Of a DNA stretch of 51,785 bases, positions 29,599 to 44,131 are shown one piece after another (within the stretch, counting starts at the first letter, position 1; each line of letters opens with the position of its first letter). The stretch is taken from positions 1 through 51,785 of the IMG/VR virus record IMGVR_UViG_3300012039_000010; one strand, 5' to 3'. A program made the position numbers and the translations under genes. The stretch comes from a virus. The notes below the pieces were generated by a model. That model made no database searches, was not told where the DNA came from, and saw only the letters and a program-made list of their open reading frames with translations.

Positions 29599-29963
29599 CT
29601 ACGCACCTGCTCCCGCACGACGAGGCCCGAGAGGCCCGCATCGCCGCCCGTGTCGCCGCCCGAGCCGACCGGCCCACCCCCACCGGCCCCCGCACAGCTC
29701 CGTCCTGGCGGGCCATGCTGACCCTGGTCCGCACGCACGCCGGGCTCAACCCCCTCAACGCCTTCGCCCTCAGCGACAAGGCGTTCGCCGAGGCGCTGTG
29801 GACCGCTGGCGTCGGCCCCGAGCAGTGGAACACCATCGGCTACCTCGACCAGCAGGCCGCCATCGACGCCGAGTGCGAGACGGTCGCAGACGCCCTGATC
29901 GCAGCCGGGTACCGCATCACGCAGGGCCCCCGGGGCGGGCTCCGCTTCGAGCGCCGTGGCTGA
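29595..29963 (+). CDS. Hypothetical protein
   Basis: 122 residues, ATGA start overlap. A basic N-terminal helix (REARIAARVAARADRP), then FALSDKAFAEALWTAGVGPEQWNTIGYLDQQAAIDAECETVADALIAAGY, all helical. No family recognised. The stop is 8 bases into the WhiB gene. Confidence 0.55.
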   Translation: MTTHLLPHDEAREARIAARVAARADRPTPTGPRTAPSWRAMLTLVRTHAGLNPLNAFALSDKAFAEALWTAGVGPEQWNTIGYLDQQAAIDAECETVADALIAAGYRITQGPRGGLRFERRG

Positions 29964-30300
29964 CGGGCTGCCCGGCCGCCCACGAGCTCTCCCCAACCCG
30001 CTCCCCCCGTCTCGCAACGACTGGTGGAAGGCCGGGGCCTGTGCGAACCACCGGCACCCGGAGTGGTTTACGGGCCCGTGCCACAACCCGGGCGGCCAGG
30101 GAGGCCGGGGCCCCCTCACCCGCAACGCCAACATGGCCCTCGTGGTTTGCGCCGCCTGCACGCAGCGCCGCCCGTGCCTCGCCGAGGCGCTGGAGTTCAC
30201 CGAGCAGGTGGGCGTCTGGGGCGGCCTGACCGACCAGGAGCGCCGCCTGTACGAGCACGAGCGGGCCGTCATCCTCCGGGAGCGCTTCGGCTCTGCGTAA
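29956..30300 (+). CDS. WhiB-family Fe-S transcription factor
   Basis: 114 residues from GTG 29956. Four cluster Cys: C29, C65, C68, C74 (C...C-x2-C-x5-C), a conserved W before the first Cys (NDWWKAGAC) and GVWGG at 86-90 followed by LTDQERR, the hallmark of Wbl proteins. The family occurs only in actinobacteria and their phages; it binds a [4Fe-4S] cluster and often the primary sigma factor's region 4. Phage copies (e.g. TM4 WhiB) can repress host whiB genes and affect superinfection. It lies just before the portal gene, an unusual spot. The TAA stop is part of the TAAGAT box. Confidence 0.9.
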   Translation: MADGLPGRPRALPNPLPPSRNDWWKAGACANHRHPEWFTGPCHNPGGQGGRGPLTRNANMALVVCAACTQRRPCLAEALEFTEQVGVWGGLTDQERRLYEHERAVILRERFGSA

Positions 30301-30311: not shown

Positions 30312-33300
30312 GTGGCACGGACCCGGGGGAAGCAGCAGCGTGACTTCGGCATCGTCGCCGCCGCTCAACGCATCAACCTCGCCGACAGGGCCGCCGCCCA
30401 TAGGGCCGCCGCCGTCGCCCAACCCTGGCAGGCGGAGGCGTGGGAGGCGTATAACGAGGTCCCCGAGATCGGCGAGAGCCTGACCTACCGGGGCGACCTG
30501 ATGGCGCAGCTGATCCTGTTCCCCGCTGTGGCCGACCCGGAGAACCCGGATGGCGACCCCATCCCCCTCGCCGACGAGAAGGTGGCCTGCCCCCCCGCCG
30601 TGCTCGAAGCGGCCACGGCAGAGCTCGCCCGTCTCCGCACGTGGGCTGGCGGCCAGGCCGAGATTCTGCGCCTCTACGAGATCAACATGCAGGTCGCCGG
30701 GGAGCTGTACCTGGTCGGCTACGCCCCCGACGGAGACGAGCCCGAGGAGTACTGGGCGGTCGCCTCGACGCAGGAGGTGAAGGAGCAGGACGGGGAGTAC
30801 ACGGTCCTGGCGAAGCCGGGCGACACCGAGGGCCGCAAGCTGACCGCCAACGACTACATCGAACGGTACTGGACCCGTCACCCGCAGTGGGCCGCTCTCC
30901 CCGACAGCCCGCTCCGCCGCCTCCGCACCGACACTCGGGCCGCCATCACCCTCAACGAGCAGGTGATCACCGAGGCGCTGTCGACGCTGCCAGCGGGCAT
31001 GCTCCTCATCCCCAACGAGATTCAGTTCGAGTGGCCCGCCGGGTACACCCCGTCCGACAAGGACGCCGAGCGGAACCCGTTCGACGTCATGCTCGAGATG
31101 GCGATTCAGGACGGCATGGTGCCGGGGAGCTTCGCCAGCCAGTACCCGCTGACCGTCCACGGCGCCGCCGAGTTCTTGAAGGAGATCAGACGGGTCAGCC
31201 TCGCCCGTGAGGCCGACACCACCACGGAGGCCCGTCTCGCCGCCCGAGTGGACCGCATCGCCCGGGGCCTGCCGCTGCCTGTGGAGAAGGTCATGGGCCA
31301 CCAGCAGACCACGTTCGCCAACGCCAAGCAGGTCGATCAGGACACCTTCGACGACTACCTGCGCCCGTCGGCCGTGTCGATGGTGACGGCCATCACCTAC
31401 TGCTTCTACCAGCCGCACCTGATCGAGAACCCGGCCATCCCGGAGGACTGGCAGAAGCGCATCGTGGCGTGGTTCAACCCGTCTGCCCTGATCGCCGACC
31501 CGGACCCGGAGGAGAGCGCCGACTTCGGCGTGACCGAGGGCCTCGTGAAGGCGGCCAGCTGGCGAGCGAAGCGTGGCTGGACGGAGGAGGACGCCCCCGA
31601 CGCCGAGGAGCTTCTGTTGCGGATGGCGTACCGCCGGGGTGCCATCGACCCGGGCCTGACCGCACAGCTCCTCCGTGACCTGGCCGCCGAGGTGGGCGTG
31701 GAGCTGAGCGTGGCCGAGACGCAGACGATCGCCGAGCAGAGCCCGCAGCAGGCCGCCGCTCTCCTGTTGAAGTGGCACCAGGCGAAGGCCCGTGGCGAGC
31801 CGCCCCCACATCTGACGCCCCGGCAGCCGCTGGCGCTGACGGCCGGGGCCACGACAGCGCCAAGGGTGATCGACGGAGGGCGAGAGCTCCTGGCGATTGA
31901 CCAAGAGCTCCGGGTGCGGTGGCGGGCCGCCATGGACGCCGCCTTGGACCGGGAGCTGGAGCGGACAGCGAACAAGCTCCGCAACACCGCCCGCAAGCTC
32001 GGGGTGCTCAGCGCTCTGCAGGCTCGCCCCGAGGACGTCGCTCCTCTGCTCGGGCGAGCGGTGGTGGCCGCCGCCGGAGTGGAGTACGACTGGAGCCGTC
32101 TCCGACTCTCGTTCATGGGGCTTGGCCGCCGGGCCCAGGATCAGGCCGTGGATGCCGCTGGGCGCATCGCTGGGGGCTTCTCGACGGCCCAGCGGCAGAC
32201 GCTGAAGCTGCGCCAGGCCGACGACCTCGGCACGGCGTGGAAGTGGGTCCAGCAGGCGATGACGGGCCTCGCCGATCTGCGCCTGTACGACCCGTCCACC
32301 GGCCAGTACACGGGGGTGGGCGAGAGCGACCCCACGAGCTTCATCCCGGCCGGGATGGTCCGCCAGGCGATGAACGTCGCCGGGGGGAGCCCGGTCCGGG
32401 TGCTCACCGACGAGACACTCCGGAACGGGGAGGCGTGGATCAGTGTCGGGGACCGGGTGGAGGGCATCGGCGTCGGGGAGCGCATCCGGGACGCCCTCGC
32501 CTCGGAGGGCGTGGAGGTCGTCCGGTACAGGTGGATCTACGGGCCCGCCATCCGCATGCACCCCTTCGAGCCCCACCAGCGCCTCGATGGCCTCGTGTTC
32601 GAGTCGTTCGAGGACGACCGCCTCGCCAACACCTACGGGTGGCCTGTCCGCTCGCACTTCCTCCCGGGCGACCACGGGGGCTGCGTCTGCGACGTGGAGC
32701 CGATCTTGGGCGCCCCACCCCCGGTCGAGGAGCCGCCCCCGCCGCCGCCCGTGCTCGGCAAGGAGACGGGCAAGGCCGTCCGAGGGTTCGACACGCCCCT
32801 GGAGGAGAAGCTCGCTCGCCGCTTCGCCGGGTGGCGCCGCCTCCGCAGCGTCGATCAGGAGCAGCTGGACGAGCTCAACGTGGCGTACAACGCCATTCGT
32901 CGCCACCCCAACTTCTCCGTGGCGAGCCCGACGGTGGAGACGGTCGCCAAGACGTTCCGGGGCCAGTTCAAGACGTTGCAGCTGACCAAGACTCGGGCCA
33001 AGACGCTCCTCACGACGACGCCCGAGAACCTGAACCCAACCCAGCTGGACGGCATCCTGGGAGACGCCACCCGCCTCGGCCTCGACCCGCAGGACATCGC
33101 CGACCAGGGGCTGGTGGTCGTAGCCAAGGTCGGCGACCGGGAGGTCGTAGCGTTCGGCTCCGAGCACCTGTGGGCCGCTCTCGAGCGTGGCGCCGCCGAG
33201 GAGTTCTACCCCAAGGTCCTGTACTGGAACGCCAAGATCGACGTGCCGCCGGGCGCTGACCTGGAGCGCCTGTTCCACGCCGACGACCTGACCCGTGTCC

Positions 33301-34148
33301 GCCAGGCCGCCGCCCGTGAGGCGAAGGCGACCCGTCTCGCCCTCGGCCTGGACGAGCCCACAGGCAAGGCCACGCCGGGCGCCAAGACGTCGGGCCTGGC
33401 AGCTCTCCCCCCGGCCGACCGGCCCGCCGCCGCCGCCGAACAGTTCGCCAAGCGCTGGGGCCGGGGTGGCGTCGGGGGCACCAACGTGGACACCAAGGGC
33501 GCCTTCACGGGCATGTCGACCCGGGTCGCCAACGACGTCACCGACGAGCTCGACCGGATGATGCGAGCCCACCCCGTGACCGCCGGCAAGCTCCGCTCCG
33601 TCCACACCGTCAAGCTCGGGAGCAACACGCACGCCCAGGCCAATCAGGCCACCCGGGAGCTCACGTTCAACAGCCAGTTCTACGGCTACGGCAAGGAGAA
33701 GCGTTTCCAGGAGACGTGGGAGGCGTGGAACCACCAGCCGGGCTCGGGGTGGAGCGCCTACGTGGAGGGCGCCGCCGAGCGCAAGATCACCCACGCCCGG
33801 TACACGACCACCCACGAGTTCGGCCATCACATCGACTACACCGCCCGAGACAAGCTCGGCGAGGACGCCTGGGATCAGCTCGTGCAGGACACCATCGAGG
33901 CCGACTGGCGCCGGGTGCGGGGCACCAAGGGCAAGCTCCGCCGGACCCAGGAGCGGAGCAGGGGCCGGGCGAAGCTGCCGCCGGAGATGGCCGCCCACGT
34001 CAAGGAGCATCTGTCCACGTACGCCACGACTAACCTCCGGGAGGTCATGGCTGAGGTCGTCGCCGAGGCGACCCTGTCCCTCAACCCCCGGCCTCTCGCC
34101 ACCGCCCTGTACAAGCTCCTGTTGAAGCACGCAGAAGGAATCGCATGA
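30312..34148 (+). CDS. Portal-MuF fusion with C-terminal metallopeptidase
   Basis: 1278 residues. N-terminal ~1-500: portal-like ([50 protein letters not shown]). About 540-810: MuF/head morphogenesis, with PHQRLDG (from ~754) and [19 protein letters not shown] Pro-rich linker follows, then an extra ~460 residues ending in THEFGHHID: HExxH at 1168-1172 plus a later E near 1244 ([13 protein letters not shown]), a zincin pattern. Portal plus MuF forms the head vertex and is packaged or injected in some phages. The peptidase could process head proteins or enter the host with DNA. Start GTG 30312 fits the TAAGAT box; in-frame Met codons upstream are not needed. Confidence 0.8.
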
Positions 34149-34414
34149 CGAGTCTCGGCCCGCCGATCTGCATGAGCTGCGCCCGGATGGCCCGGGGACC
34201 TAATGCCGCCGTCGGGACGTGCGAGGCGTTCCCGGAGGGCATCCCCGACGACATCTGGCTCGGGGGCTACGACCATCGGCTGCCGTACCCGGGCGACGAG
34301 GGCGTCCTGTTCTCGCTGGCCCTCAGCCCCGACGCCGCCGCCGGGCTGGAGGCCTACGACGACTCGGGCCGGGCCGGGTCCGCCCAGATCGGCTACAAGG
34401 TCCCTCCCTCCTGA
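34145..34414 (+). CDS. Hypothetical Cys-containing protein common beside MuF
   Basis: 89 residues. CMSCARM... [31 protein letters not shown] matches small proteins found next to MuF/portal genes in many actinophages ('C..F.....C.aFP.GIP..i..g..dH..p.pGD.G..F'). Function unknown. ATG overlaps the portal-MuF stop. Confidence 0.75.
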
Positions 34415-34427
34415 CCGACGCCGGGCG

Positions 34428-34433
34428 TATGCT
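34428..34433 (+). promoter_or_regulatory. -10 box TATGCT for leaderless protease gene
   Basis: TATGCT ends 7 bases before ATG 34441 in a 26-base gap without a Shine-Dalgarno. Confidence 0.5.
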
Positions 34434-34440
34434 CCCGGTC

Positions 34441-36024
34441 ATGCCTCCGCAGCTTGCCCCTGCCCCGTTCCCTCTCGTCCGTCAGGCTGGCGCCGCCTGG
34501 GAGGTGCACGCAGGCGACGACGTCCTCGCCGTGCGAGACACCTACCCGGAGGCTGTCGCCTTCCTGGCTGACCTGGCCGCCGACGAGGGCGCCCCAACAC
34601 CGAGCTCTGACGGCCTGTTGCCGGAGACGTGGACGGGCGAGGTGGCCATCGCCTACAACGAGCAGCCCGACCCGGAACGTGACTTCACGAACGTCAAGTG
34701 GGGGTGGCGTGACCCGGAGGCGAGCCTGGTCCCGCTCATGTTGCAGACCAGCACCGAGATGGGCCACTTCGGCGCCGAGCTCGCCGGGTTCATCCAGTCG
34801 TTCGAGCTGACCGGGACGGGCGAGCCGAACGCCACCGGCCGCTTCTACGACACCGAGGCTGGGCGCACCGCCCGGGGCCTGTTGCTCGGGGGCCGCAAGT
34901 TCGGCGTGAGCGTGGACCCGGACAGCGACACGACCGCCGACTACATGTGCATCGAGGAGGACGACGACGGGTTCTGCCAGGCGGCCATGTGGAGCTTCAC
35001 GTACTACAGCATCGCCGGGCTGACCATGACGCCGTTCCCGGCCTTCGCCCGAGCCAACATCGTTCTGGCCGGGGCCGAGACGGCCGACAGCTCCGCCCCT
35101 GAGGACACCGTGGAGGCCGCTCTGGAGGGCCTCGTTGCTGCGAGTGCAGCCCGCCCGGACCGGCGTGCCCGACCGCCCAAGGCGTGGTTCACGATGCCGG
35201 AGCCTGAGTTCGGCGACCCGCTCCTCGTGCAACAGGACCTCGCTGGGGAGCGGTGGGGCGTGCCCCTGACCATCACCGAGGAGGGCCACGTCTTCGGCCA
35301 CCTGGCGCTGTGGGGCGAGTGCCTGCGGGTAGGCCGGGAGGACGTCTGCATCCAGCCGCCCGACAGCGCCCGGGCTTACGCCGAGTTCATGGTCTGCTCG
35401 ACCCGCACCGCCGAGGGAGAGCTCGTGGCGACGGGCGCCATGGTGGTCGGCTGCCCGCACTACCCCGTCTCGGGCGTGGACCGCTCCCACCCGTCGGTCG
35501 TGCGTGACTACTACGCCGAGGCCGGGCTGGGCTGGGCTGACGTGCGAGCGAGCTCTGGGGCGTTCGGCCCGTGGATCACCGGCCGGGTCCGCCCCGACGT
35601 GACCCTGGCGCAGCTGTCCGTCTTGCAGAGCGTCCCGCCCTCAGGCGACTGGTCGTTCTCCCCGGAGGACGGGGGCCTGGAGCTGTGCGCCATCCTGTCC
35701 GTCAACAAGCCCGGCTACCCGGTGCGCCGTGAGGCCATCGCCGCCGCCGCTCTCCCCGCTGACAGCCTCGCCGACGGCGCCTCCGTCGCAGCGCACCTGG
35801 TCGGCCGGACGGTCATGGCGCTGACCGGCGCCAACAGGGTGCGTCCGTGCCCCGAGTGCAACCAGAGGCACGCCGCTGCCCAGACGGCCACCAGCCGGGA
35901 GCTCGCCGCTCTCGCACGCATCGAGGCCCTCCTCCGGACCATCGACCGGCGCACCCTCCACTTGAACGGCGCCGCCATGCAGACGGCCCGGGCCCGTCTC
36001 TTTCCCCCGACCATCCGTGACTGA
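34441..36024 (+). CDS. Capsid maturation protease-like protein
   Basis: 527 residues between the MuF gene and the capsid. The long N-terminal half is beta-rich (GEVAIAYNEQPDPERDFTNVKWGW, LMLQTSTEMGHFGAELAGFIQSFELTGTGEP). The stretch ARGLLLGGRKFGVSVDPDSD and ITEEGHVFGHLALW resemble actinophage prohead protease fusions, where a Ser/His pair acts, here not certain. The C-terminal part has a CPECNQRH zinc motif. It would process the capsid protein's N-terminal scaffold. Start 34441 follows TATGCT by 7 bases. Confidence 0.65.
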   Translation: MPPQLAPAPFPLVRQAGAAWEVHAGDDVLAVRDTYPEAVAFLADLAADEGAPTPSSDGLLPETWTGEVAIAYNEQPDPERDFTNVKWGWRDPEASLVPLMLQTSTEMGHFGAELAGFIQSFELTGTGEPNATGRFYDTEAGRTARGLLLGGRKFGVSVDPDSDTTADYMCIEEDDDGFCQAAMWSFTYYSIAGLTMTPFPAFARANIVLAGAETADSSAPEDTVEAALEGLVAASAARPDRRARPPKAWFTMPEPEFGDPLLVQQDLAGERWGVPLTITEEGHVFGHLALWGECLRVGREDVCIQPPDSARAYAEFMVCSTRTAEGELVATGAMVVGCPHYPVSGVDRSHPSVVRDYYAEAGLGWADVRASSGAFGPWITGRVRPDVTLAQLSVLQSVPPSGDWSFSPEDGGLELCAILSVNKPGYPVRREAIAAAALPADSLADGASVAAHLVGRTVMALTGANRVRPCPECNQRHAAAQTATSRELAALARIEALLRTIDRRTLHLNGAAMQTARARLFPPTIRD

Positions 36025-36170: not shown

Positions 36171-37916
36171 ATGCAGGTGCTGACCGAGCTTCTGGCCCGT
36201 GTGGCCCAGGGCCTCACCGAACTGACCGACGAGGAGCTGGCGCTCCTCCTGGACGAGGTTGTCTCCGAGGCTCTGGCCCTCGCCGAGACGGACGACAGCG
36301 ACGAGGCGTTGACGCTGGTGCAGCAGGCCGTGGAGGCCCGCACTGCGATCGTCGCCGAGCAGACGCAGCGTGCAGCTGACGCCGACGGCCGGGCGACCCG
36401 GGCCGCCGACCTCATCGCCGCCCTCAACGCCGGGCCCGACGACGACCCGGAGCCCGAGCCGGAGCCGGAGCCGGAGGAGCCCGAGGCCGAGGCGGCCGAG
36501 GCCACCGAGGCGGAGATCGCCGAGGTTGTCGCAGAGGCCGAGGAGGTCGTGCAGGAGGCCCTGGAGCCTGTTGCGGCGAGCTCTGCCCCTGTGGTGTCCC
36601 GTGTGGCAGCCCGCCGCCCGGCCAGCCGGGCCGTCTCCCGTGCGCAGGCCCGCCCGGCCCGCCAGGTCGGCTCCGTCGCAGAGTGGGGCCTCGTGGCCTC
36701 CGCCAACGCCCCCGGCACGGTCAACGCCGGAGCGCCCGTCCGCACCGAGGTGGAGCTCGCCGACATGTTCCTGGAGGCTTGGGCCGCCAGCGAGAGCTAC
36801 CGGGGCCCGTCCACCTACATCAAGCTCGCCCGTGCAGGCCAGCTCGCCTCTCCCCGCACGTTCGGGGCGGCCCGCTTCCTCGACCGGGACGAGACGGGCA
36901 ACGGCCGCAAGATCAGGGACGTGACGAGCGCCGAGGCCATCACGGCCGCCGGGGGCATCTGCGCCCCGGTCGAGGTGCGCTACGACATCCCCTTCGTCGG
37001 CTCGACCGAGCGCCCCGTCAGGGACGCCCTCGTCCGCTTCGGCGCCGACCGTGGTGGCGTCCGCACCATCCCGCCGGCAGTCATGAGCGAGTTCGAGGCT
37101 GGCGTGGACCTGTGGACCGAGGCGAACGACGTCAACCCCACCGACCCCACGGTCAAGCCGTGCCTCGTCATGACCTGCCCCGAGGAGGAGGAGACGGTCG
37201 TTGACGCCATCACCAAGTGCTTGGAGATCGGCAACTTCCGGGCCCGGTACTTCCCCGAGCAGGTCGCAGAGTGGACCCAGATGCTGTCCGTCTGGCAGGC
37301 CCGCTTCGCCGAGCAGAACCTGATCACCCAGATCGCCGCTGGCTCGACCGACATCTCCGTCGGCCAGGTGCTCGGCACGGTCCGGACGATCCTGGCCTCG
37401 CTCGCCCGGGAGATCGCCGCCGTGCGGTACCGCTACCGGATGCCTCGGAGCTTCCCCCTGCGCCTCCTGTTCCCGGAGTGGATCTACGAGAACATGAAGG
37501 CCGACCTGATCCGGCAGATGCCGGTCGGGACGCTCGAGGAGACGCTGGCCGTCGCCGACAGCACGCTGGATCGGTTCTTCGCCGCCCTCAACATCCGCAT
37601 CACCCTCATGAAGGAGGGCGAGACGGGCCAGGGCTTCGGAGCGCAGGGCGACGGGACGCTCAACCCGTGGCCGTCCACGGTCATCGGCTACATCTTCCCC
37701 GAGGGCACGTGGCTGTTCCTCGACGGGGGCACGCTGGACCTGGGCATCTACCGGGACAGCGGCCTGATCGAGACGAACGATTACCGCATGTTCTCGGAGA
37801 CGTTCGAGGCCGCCCACTTCCACGGGCAGTTCTCCCACCGCTTCATCTTCGACATCTGCCCGGACGGCTCGGCGTCGGCTCTGATCGACATCGACCCGTG
37901 CACGCTGGGTAGCTGA
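36171..37916 (+). CDS. Major capsid protein with N-terminal scaffold region
   Basis: 581 residues; CAGGAGA precedes the ATG. About 1-170 is helical and acidic, with a Pro-Glu repeat (~92-103), then an Arg/Ala-rich stretch (VSRVAARRPASRAVSRAQARPARQ); it looks like a delta/scaffold domain removed by the protease. The remaining ~400 residues have HK97-like capsid features: RVDVRYDIPF-like EVRYDIPFVGS, and late WLFLDGGTLDLGIYRDSG... NDYRMFSETFEAAH. It would assemble the icosahedral head. Followed by a strong terminator, as expected for a highly expressed gene. Confidence 0.8.
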   Translation: MQVLTELLARVAQGLTELTDEELALLLDEVVSEALALAETDDSDEALTLVQQAVEARTAIVAEQTQRAADADGRATRAADLIAALNAGPDDDPEPEPEPEPEEPEAEAAEATEAEIAEVVAEAEEVVQEALEPVAASSAPVVSRVAARRPASRAVSRAQARPARQVGSVAEWGLVASANAPGTVNAGAPVRTEVELADMFLEAWAASESYRGPSTYIKLARAGQLASPRTFGAARFLDRDETGNGRKIRDVTSAEAITAAGGICAPVEVRYDIPFVGSTERPVRDALVRFGADRGGVRTIPPAVMSEFEAGVDLWTEANDVNPTDPTVKPCLVMTCPEEEETVVDAITKCLEIGNFRARYFPEQVAEWTQMLSVWQARFAEQNLITQIAAGSTDISVGQVLGTVRTILASLAREIAAVRYRYRMPRSFPLRLLFPEWIYENMKADLIRQMPVGTLEETLAVADSTLDRFFAALNIRITLMKEGETGQGFGAQGDGTLNPWPSTVIGYIFPEGTWLFLDGGTLDLGIYRDSGLIETNDYRMFSETFEAAHFHGQFSHRFIFDICPDGSASALIDIDPCTLGS

Positions 37917-41739: not shown

Positions 41740-42213
41740 ATGAGCAAGACCCAGCCCACCCTCACCATCACCGTCCCCGGCCGCTTCCTCATGGCGGAGG
41801 CCCCCAAGGGCGCCAAGGTCGTCAAGCCCGGCACCCGCCAGTCCACGGTCGAGTTCACCTCGGCGCAGCTGATCGAGTTCATGGCGAAGGCGGCCCACTT
41901 CGCCAACCACAAGAACTTCAGCCCGGTCCCGGCCGACCTGTGGCCGGTCATCGACTCGGCCCGCAACACGGTCAAGGCGCTCGACGCCAACGCCGCTGTG
42001 GCGGAGTTCCTCGGCATCCAGGGCCCCGTCGTTCCCCGGACGGCCCCGGCCCCCGAGGTCATCGAGGTCCCCGAGTCGATCACCATCGTGGTCGAGACGC
42101 CGGACCCGGCCCCCGAGGTTGGCGACATCGACCCGGTCGCAGTGAAGCGGGCTGCCCGCAACGCCGCAGCCCGTGAGCGCCGTGCAGCCAAGAAGGCGAA
42201 GGCGAACGCCTGA
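41740..42213 (+). CDS. Hypothetical protein under structured leader
   Basis: 157 residues; CCAGGAGG upstream. N-terminus TLTITVPGRFLMAEAPKGAKVVKPGTRQSTVEFTSAQLIEFMAKAAHF suggests a small beta/alpha domain; the C-terminus is a basic Ala/Arg/Lys stretch (KRAARNAAARERRAAKKAKANA). The middle is Pro/Glu/Val-rich. The gene has its own promoter and terminator. It might bind RNA or DNA via the basic tail, perhaps its own leader; this is inference. Confidence 0.6.
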   Translation: MSKTQPTLTITVPGRFLMAEAPKGAKVVKPGTRQSTVEFTSAQLIEFMAKAAHFANHKNFSPVPADLWPVIDSARNTVKALDANAAVAEFLGIQGPVVPRTAPAPEVIEVPESITIVVETPDPAPEVGDIDPVAVKRAARNAAARERRAAKKAKANA

Positions 42214-42288
42214 CCCTCAGGGGGGGAGACCTCGCCGGGTGCGGGAAACGCCCCGGGGCAGGAAGGCTCCCCCCCACCTGGTCCAAGC

Positions 42289-42323
42289 AGCGCCCCCCGT
42301 CCACACCAGGGCCGGGGGGCGCT
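42289..42323 (+). terminator. Terminator hairpin
   Basis: 11-base perfect arms (AGCGCCCCCCG and its complement) with a 13-base loop; then CTGCGTTCT. Upstream at ~42220 lie G-rich and C-rich runs that could form another hairpin. Confidence 0.65.
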
Positions 42324-42341
42324 CTGCGTTCTCGGGGCCGC

Positions 42342-42356
42342 TAACCCCGGTAACGT
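42342..42356 (+). promoter_or_regulatory. -10 box TAACGT with degenerate operator (site 9), leaderless
   Basis: TAACGT (42351-42356) is 8 bases before ATG 42365. The upstream TAACCCCGGTAAC (42342-42354) is an off-register version of the operator. A -35 match is weak. It would start the glycan cluster. Confidence 0.45.
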
Positions 42357-42364
42357 CTGGCGCC

Positions 42365-44131
42365 ATGCGCATCGCCTACATCGGCAACTTCACCCGCCCC
42401 TGGTGCACCGAGGTCCACGTGGCCGCCGCCCTCACCGAGCTCGGCCACAGCGTGGTCCGTCTCCAGGAGAACCGCACCCAGCTCGACCAGCAGACCAAGG
42501 CCCTGCTCCACGGGGGCAACCGGCCGGGCCGCCTCGGGCAGGCGCCCCCGGACCTGTTCATCTGGACTCGCACGTGGGGCGTGCCGCCCGCCCAGGCGAA
42601 CGGGATGCTGGAACAGCTGCGGGCCGCCGGGGTGCCCATCGTGTCGTTCCACCTGGACCGCTACCTCGGCATCGAGCGTGAGGGGATGGTGGACTCGGAG
42701 CCGTTCTTCCGGACGGACCTCCTGTTCACGCCCGACTCGGGCGACTGGGCCGCCCACGGTGTGCGGGCCCACTGGATGCCGCCGGGGGTGGACCGGGCCG
42801 AGGCCAACGCCGTGTACCGGCCGAACCCCAAGCGGTGGCCGTGGAAGGTGGTCATGGTCGGGAGCTTCCCGTACCCGCACCCCGACTGGCACCCGGTACG
42901 AGCGGAGGTCGTCTCTCATCTGAGAGCCCGTTACGGAGACGCCTTCGCCGTGCTGCCCGCCGATCAGGGGGGCCGACCGATCCGCAACGCCGACCTGGGG
43001 GAGCTCTACGCCACCGTGCCGGTGGTGGTGGGCGACAGCTGCTGGGCCGGGATGGCCGACGACCCGGGCGGCTACTGGTCCGACAGGGTGACCGAGACGC
43101 TGGGCCGGGGCGGCTACCTCATCCACCCGCACAGCGCCAAGCTCGCCGAGATGTACCCCGACCTCGCCCTCTACAGCCTGGGCAACATGGACGAGCTCGG
43201 CACGCTGATTGACGAGGTGCTGGAGCCCCCGAACGACCTGATCGCTGCCGCTGTGGCGAGGGCCCGGGTCCGCAACAGGGAGCTCGTGCTCGGCCGGGAC
43301 ACCTACGCCCACCGCATGGAGGAGCTTCTGGTCACAGCGATGGACGCCGCCCAGATCAGGGAAGCGTCCCGGCCTGTGCCGCCAGCCCCTCCGCCGAGGG
43401 CCCTGAGGAGGGCCCCTCGTGTGCCGGAGAGCCCCGAGGTCGCCGCCGCTGCCCAGACGGTCACTGGCACCTACCGGCCCCGCAGGCTGCGTCATACGTT
43501 CCGCTGGGCTGAGGGCGTCTCCGACAGCCACGCCGTCAAGGAGGTGTGGGACAACGACGACTACGGGATGGCCGGGCTTCCGCTGGCCGGGGCGACCGTC
43601 ATCGACGTCGGCGCCAACCTGGGCGCCTTCTCCGTGCTGGCGGCCATGCTCGGCGCCCGAGACGTGCACGCCTACGAGCCTCACCCGGAGACGTTCGCCT
43701 GCCTGCTCGAGAACGTGGCGGCCTGCAGGGTGGCGAACAGGATCACGTGCCACAACCACGCCGTGGGGGGCTGGGCCCGGGTGGATGCGCTGGTGGGCTC
43801 TGGGGGTGGCGCTCACATCGGGGCCGGGGTGGACGGGCCCGAGGTGGCTGTGCTCGACATCTCGGCCGTGCTGGAGCCGGTCCAGGGGGAGGTCGTTCTG
43901 AAGCTGGACTGCGAGGGCTCCGAGTACGAGATCATCGACGGGCTGGCCGACGCTGACTGGGCGAAGGTCAAGGCGGTGGTGATGGAGTGGCACGGGCCCG
44001 GCATGCCCCACCTGGCCCACATCGACCTCGACCGCTGGGGGCCGATGGTCCAGCGTCTGGCCGACCACGGGGCGTTGACGATCAAGGGCCACCCGCATCT
44101 GGGTGGGCTTCTGTGGTGCAGGAGGTACTGA
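42365..44131 (+). CDS. Glycosyltransferase (GT-B)-FkbM methyltransferase fusion
   Basis: 588 residues. N-terminal ~1-370: GT-B-like, RIAYIGNFTRPWCTEVHVAAALTELGHSV, FSFHLDRYLGIEREG-like PIVSFHLDRYLG, and WHPVRAEVV/TETLGRGGYLIHP, reminiscent of CgeB-type glycosyltransferases. C-terminal ~400-588: FkbM-type methyltransferase with VIDVGANLGAFSVLAAMLG (412-430), LKLDCEGSEYEII. FkbM enzymes O-methylate sugars or other OH groups. A single chain that adds and caps a sugar is likely. It heads a run of glycan enzymes inside the structural gene region. Leaderless start. Confidence 0.8.
   Translation: MRIAYIGNFTRPWCTEVHVAAALTELGHSVVRLQENRTQLDQQTKALLHGGNRPGRLGQAPPDLFIWTRTWGVPPAQANGMLEQLRAAGVPIVSFHLDRYLGIEREGMVDSEPFFRTDLLFTPDSGDWAAHGVRAHWMPPGVDRAEANAVYRPNPKRWPWKVVMVGSFPYPHPDWHPVRAEVVSHLRARYGDAFAVLPADQGGRPIRNADLGELYATVPVVVGDSCWAGMADDPGGYWSDRVTETLGRGGYLIHPHSAKLAEMYPDLALYSLGNMDELGTLIDEVLEPPNDLIAAAVARARVRNRELVLGRDTYAHRMEELLVTAMDAAQIREASRPVPPAPPPRALRRAPRVPESPEVAAAAQTVTGTYRPRRLRHTFRWAEGVSDSHAVKEVWDNDDYGMAGLPLAGATVIDVGANLGAFSVLAAMLGARDVHAYEPHPETFACLLENVAACRVANRITCHNHAVGGWARVDALVGSGGGAHIGAGVDGPEVAVLDISAVLEPVQGEVVLKLDCEGSEYEIIDGLADADWAKVKAVVMEWHGPGMPHLAHIDLDRWGPMVQRLADHGALTIKGHPHLGGLLWCRRY

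Follow-up and report, generated by a model that had tools for sequence, protein, structure and literature searches.

A zincin-like metallopeptidase domain at the end of a phage portal chain, paired with a conserved small gene

Results

Architecture of the portal-zincin chain

A soil actinobacterial phage encodes a single 1278-residue protein in which a portal, a likely MuF part and a zincin-like metallopeptidase domain are joined, and comparison with its relatives provides good support for a zinc metallopeptidase carried on the portal(-MuF) chain. The gene lies in the window, that is the whole 51,785-nucleotide stretch of IMG/VR record IMGVR_UViG_3300012039_000010 that was analysed (Table 1). 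We consider it about 50% probable that the zincin serves as an effector peptidase carried in the virion, which would be cut free and ejected with the DNA, and that an 89-residue partner would keep it harmless or help to load it. Metallopeptidases linked to MuF or portal proteins, and effectors fused to them, have already been described (Iyer 2017, Jamet 2017); the kind of protein is therefore known and it is the architecture that is new here.

The open reading frame starts with GTG and is translated without interruption. It was also found at full length and with 100% identity in three other IMG/VR contigs, with partial copies in more, which rules out a misassembly joining a portal to a MuF-zincin gene. 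An earlier note on this DNA had described some 460 extra residues after the MuF part. That length was confirmed, although the region holds two parts, a ParB-like segment and the zincin; the former had been overlooked, as had the coupled small gene downstream.

Table 1 Features of the portal-zincin gene and its neighbours in the window.
Feature	Residues	Position	Strand	Evidence or remark
Single ORF: portal, MuF-like, Pro-rich linker, ParB-like segment, zincin	1278 aa	30312..34148	+	
Portal domain	8-563	30333..32000	+	PHROG 776, E 1.8e-59
MuF-like core	739-799	32526..32708	+	weak: hhalign in MuF register, E 0.038; position
Proline-rich linker	799-816	32706..32759	+	sequence
ParB/sulfiredoxin-like segment	about 886-976	32967..33239	+	AlphaFold model, mostly moderate pLDDT; Foldseek ranking
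Zincin-like metallopeptidase domain	1041-1278	33432..34145	+	relatives, alignment, model, profile searches
HEFGH zinc-binding/catalytic motif (predicted)	1168-1172	33813..33827	+	H, E, G, H invariant in 10/10 alignment rows
EVMAE, predicted third zinc ligand helix	1244-1248	34041..34055	+	E1244, A1247 invariant; E1248 in at least 90%
Partner gene	89 aa	34145..34414	+	start overlaps zincin stop (ATGA); C..C...C.AFP.GIP..I...DHR...GD.G family
Head maturation protease ORF		34219..36024	+	start codon uncertain; PHROG 18402, E 2.3e-20; PHROG 859, E 5e-44 on 34312-36021
Major head protein		36171..37916	+	PHROG 777, E 7.5e-76

The N-terminal part is a tailed-phage portal of the PHROG 776 type, with the profile covering most of the domain. 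Searching with the whole protein by tblastn matched 530 phage records, mostly actinophage portals; among the matches listed, all fell in the portal part. The adjoining region ends in GD..CxC and was compared with the MuF core pattern W..D.R.R..H..DG...PGD..CxC. The MuF assignment is weak: Pfam (PF04233, PF06152) and the head-morphogenesis PHROGs gave no match to the window protein, and the correct MuF register was recovered in one short profile-profile comparison (hhalign) but not when a longer segment was compared. The AlphaFold model of residues 500-799 (pLDDT 39) was too low for use. MuF is nevertheless the likely identity of this part, because a related contig (L017) has a clear MuF domain (PF04233, E 3.9e-15) between portal and zincin. 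Reading of the sequences also suggested intein-like insertions at the MuF CxC end in Gordonia phage Vivi2 (L033 886-3303), a Microbispora contig (L039 9900-13205) and a viral contig (L116 1909-4071).

For the stretch that separates the linker from the zincin, AlphaFold (mean pLDDT 65) predicts strand-helices-strand-strand-helix-strand in that order. Foldseek ranked Noc, sulfiredoxin and ParB first for this segment at E 0.4-0.6 and probabilities up to 0.69, none of which is significant. Its best viral matches included Cantare gp11 (probability 0.98), several ParB/sulfiredoxin proteins and a MuF-like minor capsid protein of Mycobacterium phage Rope (0.99). In an alignment read by hand, the active-site arginine of ParB (G-x-x-R) is not kept, being His in the window and Tyr in both close relatives (L007 and L027). 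The model thus hints, weakly, at a ParB/sulfiredoxin-like segment.

The earlier note had also spoken of prophages; no match to integrase or resolvase families (PF00589, PF00239) was found in the whole record, which may be a fragment, and a prophage is not supported. A WhiB-family regulator gene (window 29956-30300; PF02467, E 2e-12) lies immediately upstream of the portal ORF and points to an actinobacterial host. Elsewhere in the window (42173-44131), glycosyltransferase-like and FkbM methyltransferase domains are found in one ORF.

Conserved motifs of a predicted zinc site

The sequence THEFGHHID followed by a glutamate had been read as a zincin signature. This reading was borne out: HEFGHHID begins at residue 1168, the EVMAE segment with Glu1244 and Glu1248 begins 71 residues past His1172, and HExGH together with the ExxAE glutamate is conserved in relatives with 20-28% identity, several of which lie between portal and head protease likewise. 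The motif is therefore not a product of chance. Across the ten aligned sequences the H, E, G and H of the first motif and the E and A of the second are invariant, and both close relatives keep HEFGH and ATNLxEVxAE. When the last 463 residues were shuffled 20,000 times, HExxH arose in 2.8% of shuffles and HExGH followed by ExxAE in none.

Structure prediction of the C-terminal part recovered the helices bearing HExxH and the downstream glutamate (pLDDT about 75-88). The protein thus combines HExxH with a predicted third-ligand Glu on the next helix, as in zincins, and its relatives keep both. A significant match to a solved fold or a curated zincin family was not obtained: Foldseek hits in the PDB were not significant, and the window protein gave no Pfam or NCBIfam zincin match. 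Comparing the zincin family profile with solved structures placed zinc metallopeptidases first at marginal values (E 0.005 and 0.003), Lethal factor and other zinc peptidases being reached only at E 0.003-0.4. Matches to Pfam ATLF (PF07737) were found for two relatives, L030 (E 4e-6) and L087 (1e-4), and one to M90 for a third, L031 (E 7e-5). The HEFGH-to-ExxAE region aligns with these ATLF/M34-like zincins, whereas the window protein itself is unmatched and the other domains differ; the likeness is one of peptidase fold only.

Distribution of the zincin among head genes

Using the last 401 residues, tblastn gave low-identity matches to Arthrobacter phage Mimi gp77 and Brevibacterium phage Cantare gp11 and weaker ones to Gordonia phages, e.g. 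DalanDe gp22, each encoded between portal and head maturation protease. Scans of viral contigs added the two close relatives and further ones (L017, L018, L021, L023, L030, L031, L008/L009). The zincin occurs among head genes with differing fusion partners. It is joined to MuF in L017, where the portal is a separate gene and the MuF-zincin the next large one, and in L030 (PF04233, E 3.3e-12); to the portal in L031 and L008/L009; to a UvrD-type helicase in the 2710-residue Mimi gp77, with L018 also a helicase-zincin; and, by its motif, to an HNH endonuclease in Orf14 of Gordonia phage GMA6 (L038 9974-13003), which lies in the portal-capsid interval. The tandem genes gp21 and gp22 of DalanDe (L012 1793-6468), behind portal and RNA ligase genes, each carry a HEIGH zincin motif. 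In L009 (1813-6278) another gene, with a HEMAHH motif, comes after the portal-zincin gene and ahead of one that is protease-like.

The zincin is accessory, and most phages with this portal type are without it. The C-terminal part matched 16 phage records by tblastn versus 530 for the whole protein, and the Microbispora prophage of L039 has a portal and a MuF-protease without zincin. The L017 zincin had no match among named phages. No cellular zincin homologue was confirmed in the genome scan, and a portal-MuF scan yielded only a Microbispora portal.

The portal half and the zincin diverge at different rates. Compared with L027, identity is 85% in the portal, 84% in MuF, 52% in the inter-domain region and 38% in the zincin, and the corresponding dN/dS values are 0.23, 0.15, 0.81 and 1.07, which are rough because the observed pS (0.27-0.47) comes close to, without reaching, the 0.54-0.60 that saturation would give at a GC3 of 92%. 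The zincin is 76% identical to that of L007 with a dN/dS of only 0.59; given this value and the near-saturated synonymous sites, positive selection is not proven. Recombination could explain the divergence of the L027 zincin, as could fast evolution.

A small candidate partner gene follows the zincin

Homologues of the 89-residue protein are encoded directly behind the MuF-zincin genes of L007, L027, L017 and Flavobacterium phage lotta8-2 (gp028 MuF-zincin, gp029 partner homologue), the last having a portal of another type. Searching viral contigs with a profile of five sequences gave 194 relatives. From these, 80 loci were retained, and 62 distinct small proteins were left once duplicates and the phage of the window itself had been taken out. 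A zincin ORF (HExxH and a later Glu) lies directly upstream of 51 of these 62, compared with 2 of 170 control ORFs, or of 52 if L105, whose loop is shorter than the search pattern, is included. Because these relatives were selected for resembling the small protein of the window, this 82% pairing holds for that neighbourhood and not for the whole family. When distinct upstream genes with HExxH were counted separately, an ExxAE-type motif followed downstream in 48 of 51. Stop and start most often overlap by four bases (19 cases). The small gene is thus directly downstream of the zincin gene and conserved with it, as with MuF toxins.

Several of the proteins upstream of the partner are MuF by Pfam, and not all carry a zincin. 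Six (L054, L059, L062, L064, L081, L097) end, by reading, in a JAB-like HNHP...SFSxxD segment, possibly a second metalloenzyme class in this slot; one (L100) combines MuF with an ADP-ribosyltransferase (PF03496, E 7e-6), and the L116 gene is a MuF with the intein-like insertion and without an effector. Partner copies away from zincins are found in Brevibacillus phage Jenst and on a Methanothrix plasmid. The latter, on pGP6 of Methanothrix soehngenii (L120 4932-5177), is a stand-alone archaeal copy.

The partner family corresponds to PHROG 33375 (25 of its 28 members), whose function is unannotated, and has no Pfam match above cut-off and no relative among solved structures. Within the sensitivity of tblastn it is not a general MuF companion, since among 50,697 named phage records the L060 small protein matched 7 and the L017 MuF region 1074. 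A text search for the peptide motif or the pairing with zincins found no paper in the incomplete literature searched; within it, the widespread zincin pairing with one small family is the result that we did not find described.

Discussion

The closest published systems are the MuF polymorphic toxins, in which a MuF head protein likewise carries a variable C-terminal effector. A metallopeptidase is present in 20% of 191 MuF toxins, and small ORFs follow 89% of the toxin genes (Jamet et al. 2017, PMC5576092). In contrast to these, portal, MuF-like, ParB-like and zincin parts form one chain here, the MuF-like core has diverged beyond the reach of PF04233 and no integrase was found. The layout of a MuF-borne effector followed by one or more small genes is shared with Apk2 and Bxa, whose adjacent immunity genes are experimentally proven; they have other catalytic activities (PMC12226406, PMC11699363).

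Based on these comparisons, we infer how the peptidase could be deployed. Fusion to portal and MuF would place about 12 zincin copies inside the head, as judged from portal stoichiometry. The portal ring does not leave the particle, so release of the C-terminal part would require a cut, probably in the proline-rich linker or closer to the zincin. Either the head protease or the zincin itself would make it. The freed zincin would then be ejected with the DNA and cut host proteins early in infection, and the product of the 89-residue gene would either protect the producing cell from the peptidase or help to load it. Of the two roles offered in the earlier note, delivery into the host appears the more likely. 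The slow portal and MuF and the fast zincin seen against L027 speak more for an effector than for an enzyme of head maturation.

The main rival, which we regard as rather unlikely, is that the zincin has no host target and acts on its own chain alone, so that the ParB-like segment is set free and/or MuF is separated from the portal. The zincin-like MPTase of phage polyvalent proteins, with 12 published clades, includes P1 DdrB, for which self-release was proposed: in DdrB a ParB domain is combined with a C-terminal MPTase, and the protein is processed before packaging (Iyer et al. 2017, PMC5512222). The window protein resembles it in HExxH with Glu on the following helix and in the ParB-like segment preceding the zincin, being fused to a portal it would have to be cut before it could exit the head, and its relatives, like polyvalent proteins, fuse the zincin to portal, MuF, helicase or HNH in head clusters. 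However, the ParB-like assignment is weak and the conserved arginine is not kept, and the window zincin, unlike that of DdrB, is fused to a portal. L017 and L030 have the zincin without a ParB-like segment, and a domain that did nothing but cut its own chain would not be expected to diverge fast. The ejected effector peptidase is the favoured reading.

A role beside the neighbouring head protease in trimming scaffold or capsid proteins would suit the location among head genes and the portal fusion, yet is improbable: the usual head maturation protease is already present next door, and the zincin is accessory and diverges much faster than head proteins, several-fold faster than the portal in one relative. 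Least credible of all is that the domain has degenerated into a structural extension without enzyme activity, as HExGH and ExxAE persist in sequences that are otherwise 20-28% identical and the pair recurs in most HExxH genes upstream of the partner family.

For the 89-residue protein we propose a conserved partner, either inhibitor/immunity or loading factor, of virion-carried effectors. Classical toxin-specific immunity is weakened, as the family pairs with three catalytic folds and stands alone; pairing with more than one fold favours a general role over a toxin-specific antidote. Tentatively, the 60-90-residue CxxC...CxAFPxGIP...DHR...GDxG proteins may form one dedicated partner family for head-carried effectors in phages of several bacterial phyla. 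Their effectors would have unrelated folds, mostly zincin but also JAB-like and ADP-ribosyltransferase. Because the partner is conserved while the effectors diverge, it may act on a shared step such as loading, zinc handling, head latency or general protection. The portal fusion predicts a cleaved chain, and the partner family, being small and easily expressed, would offer a direct handle on how head-carried effectors are silenced during assembly and released at infection.
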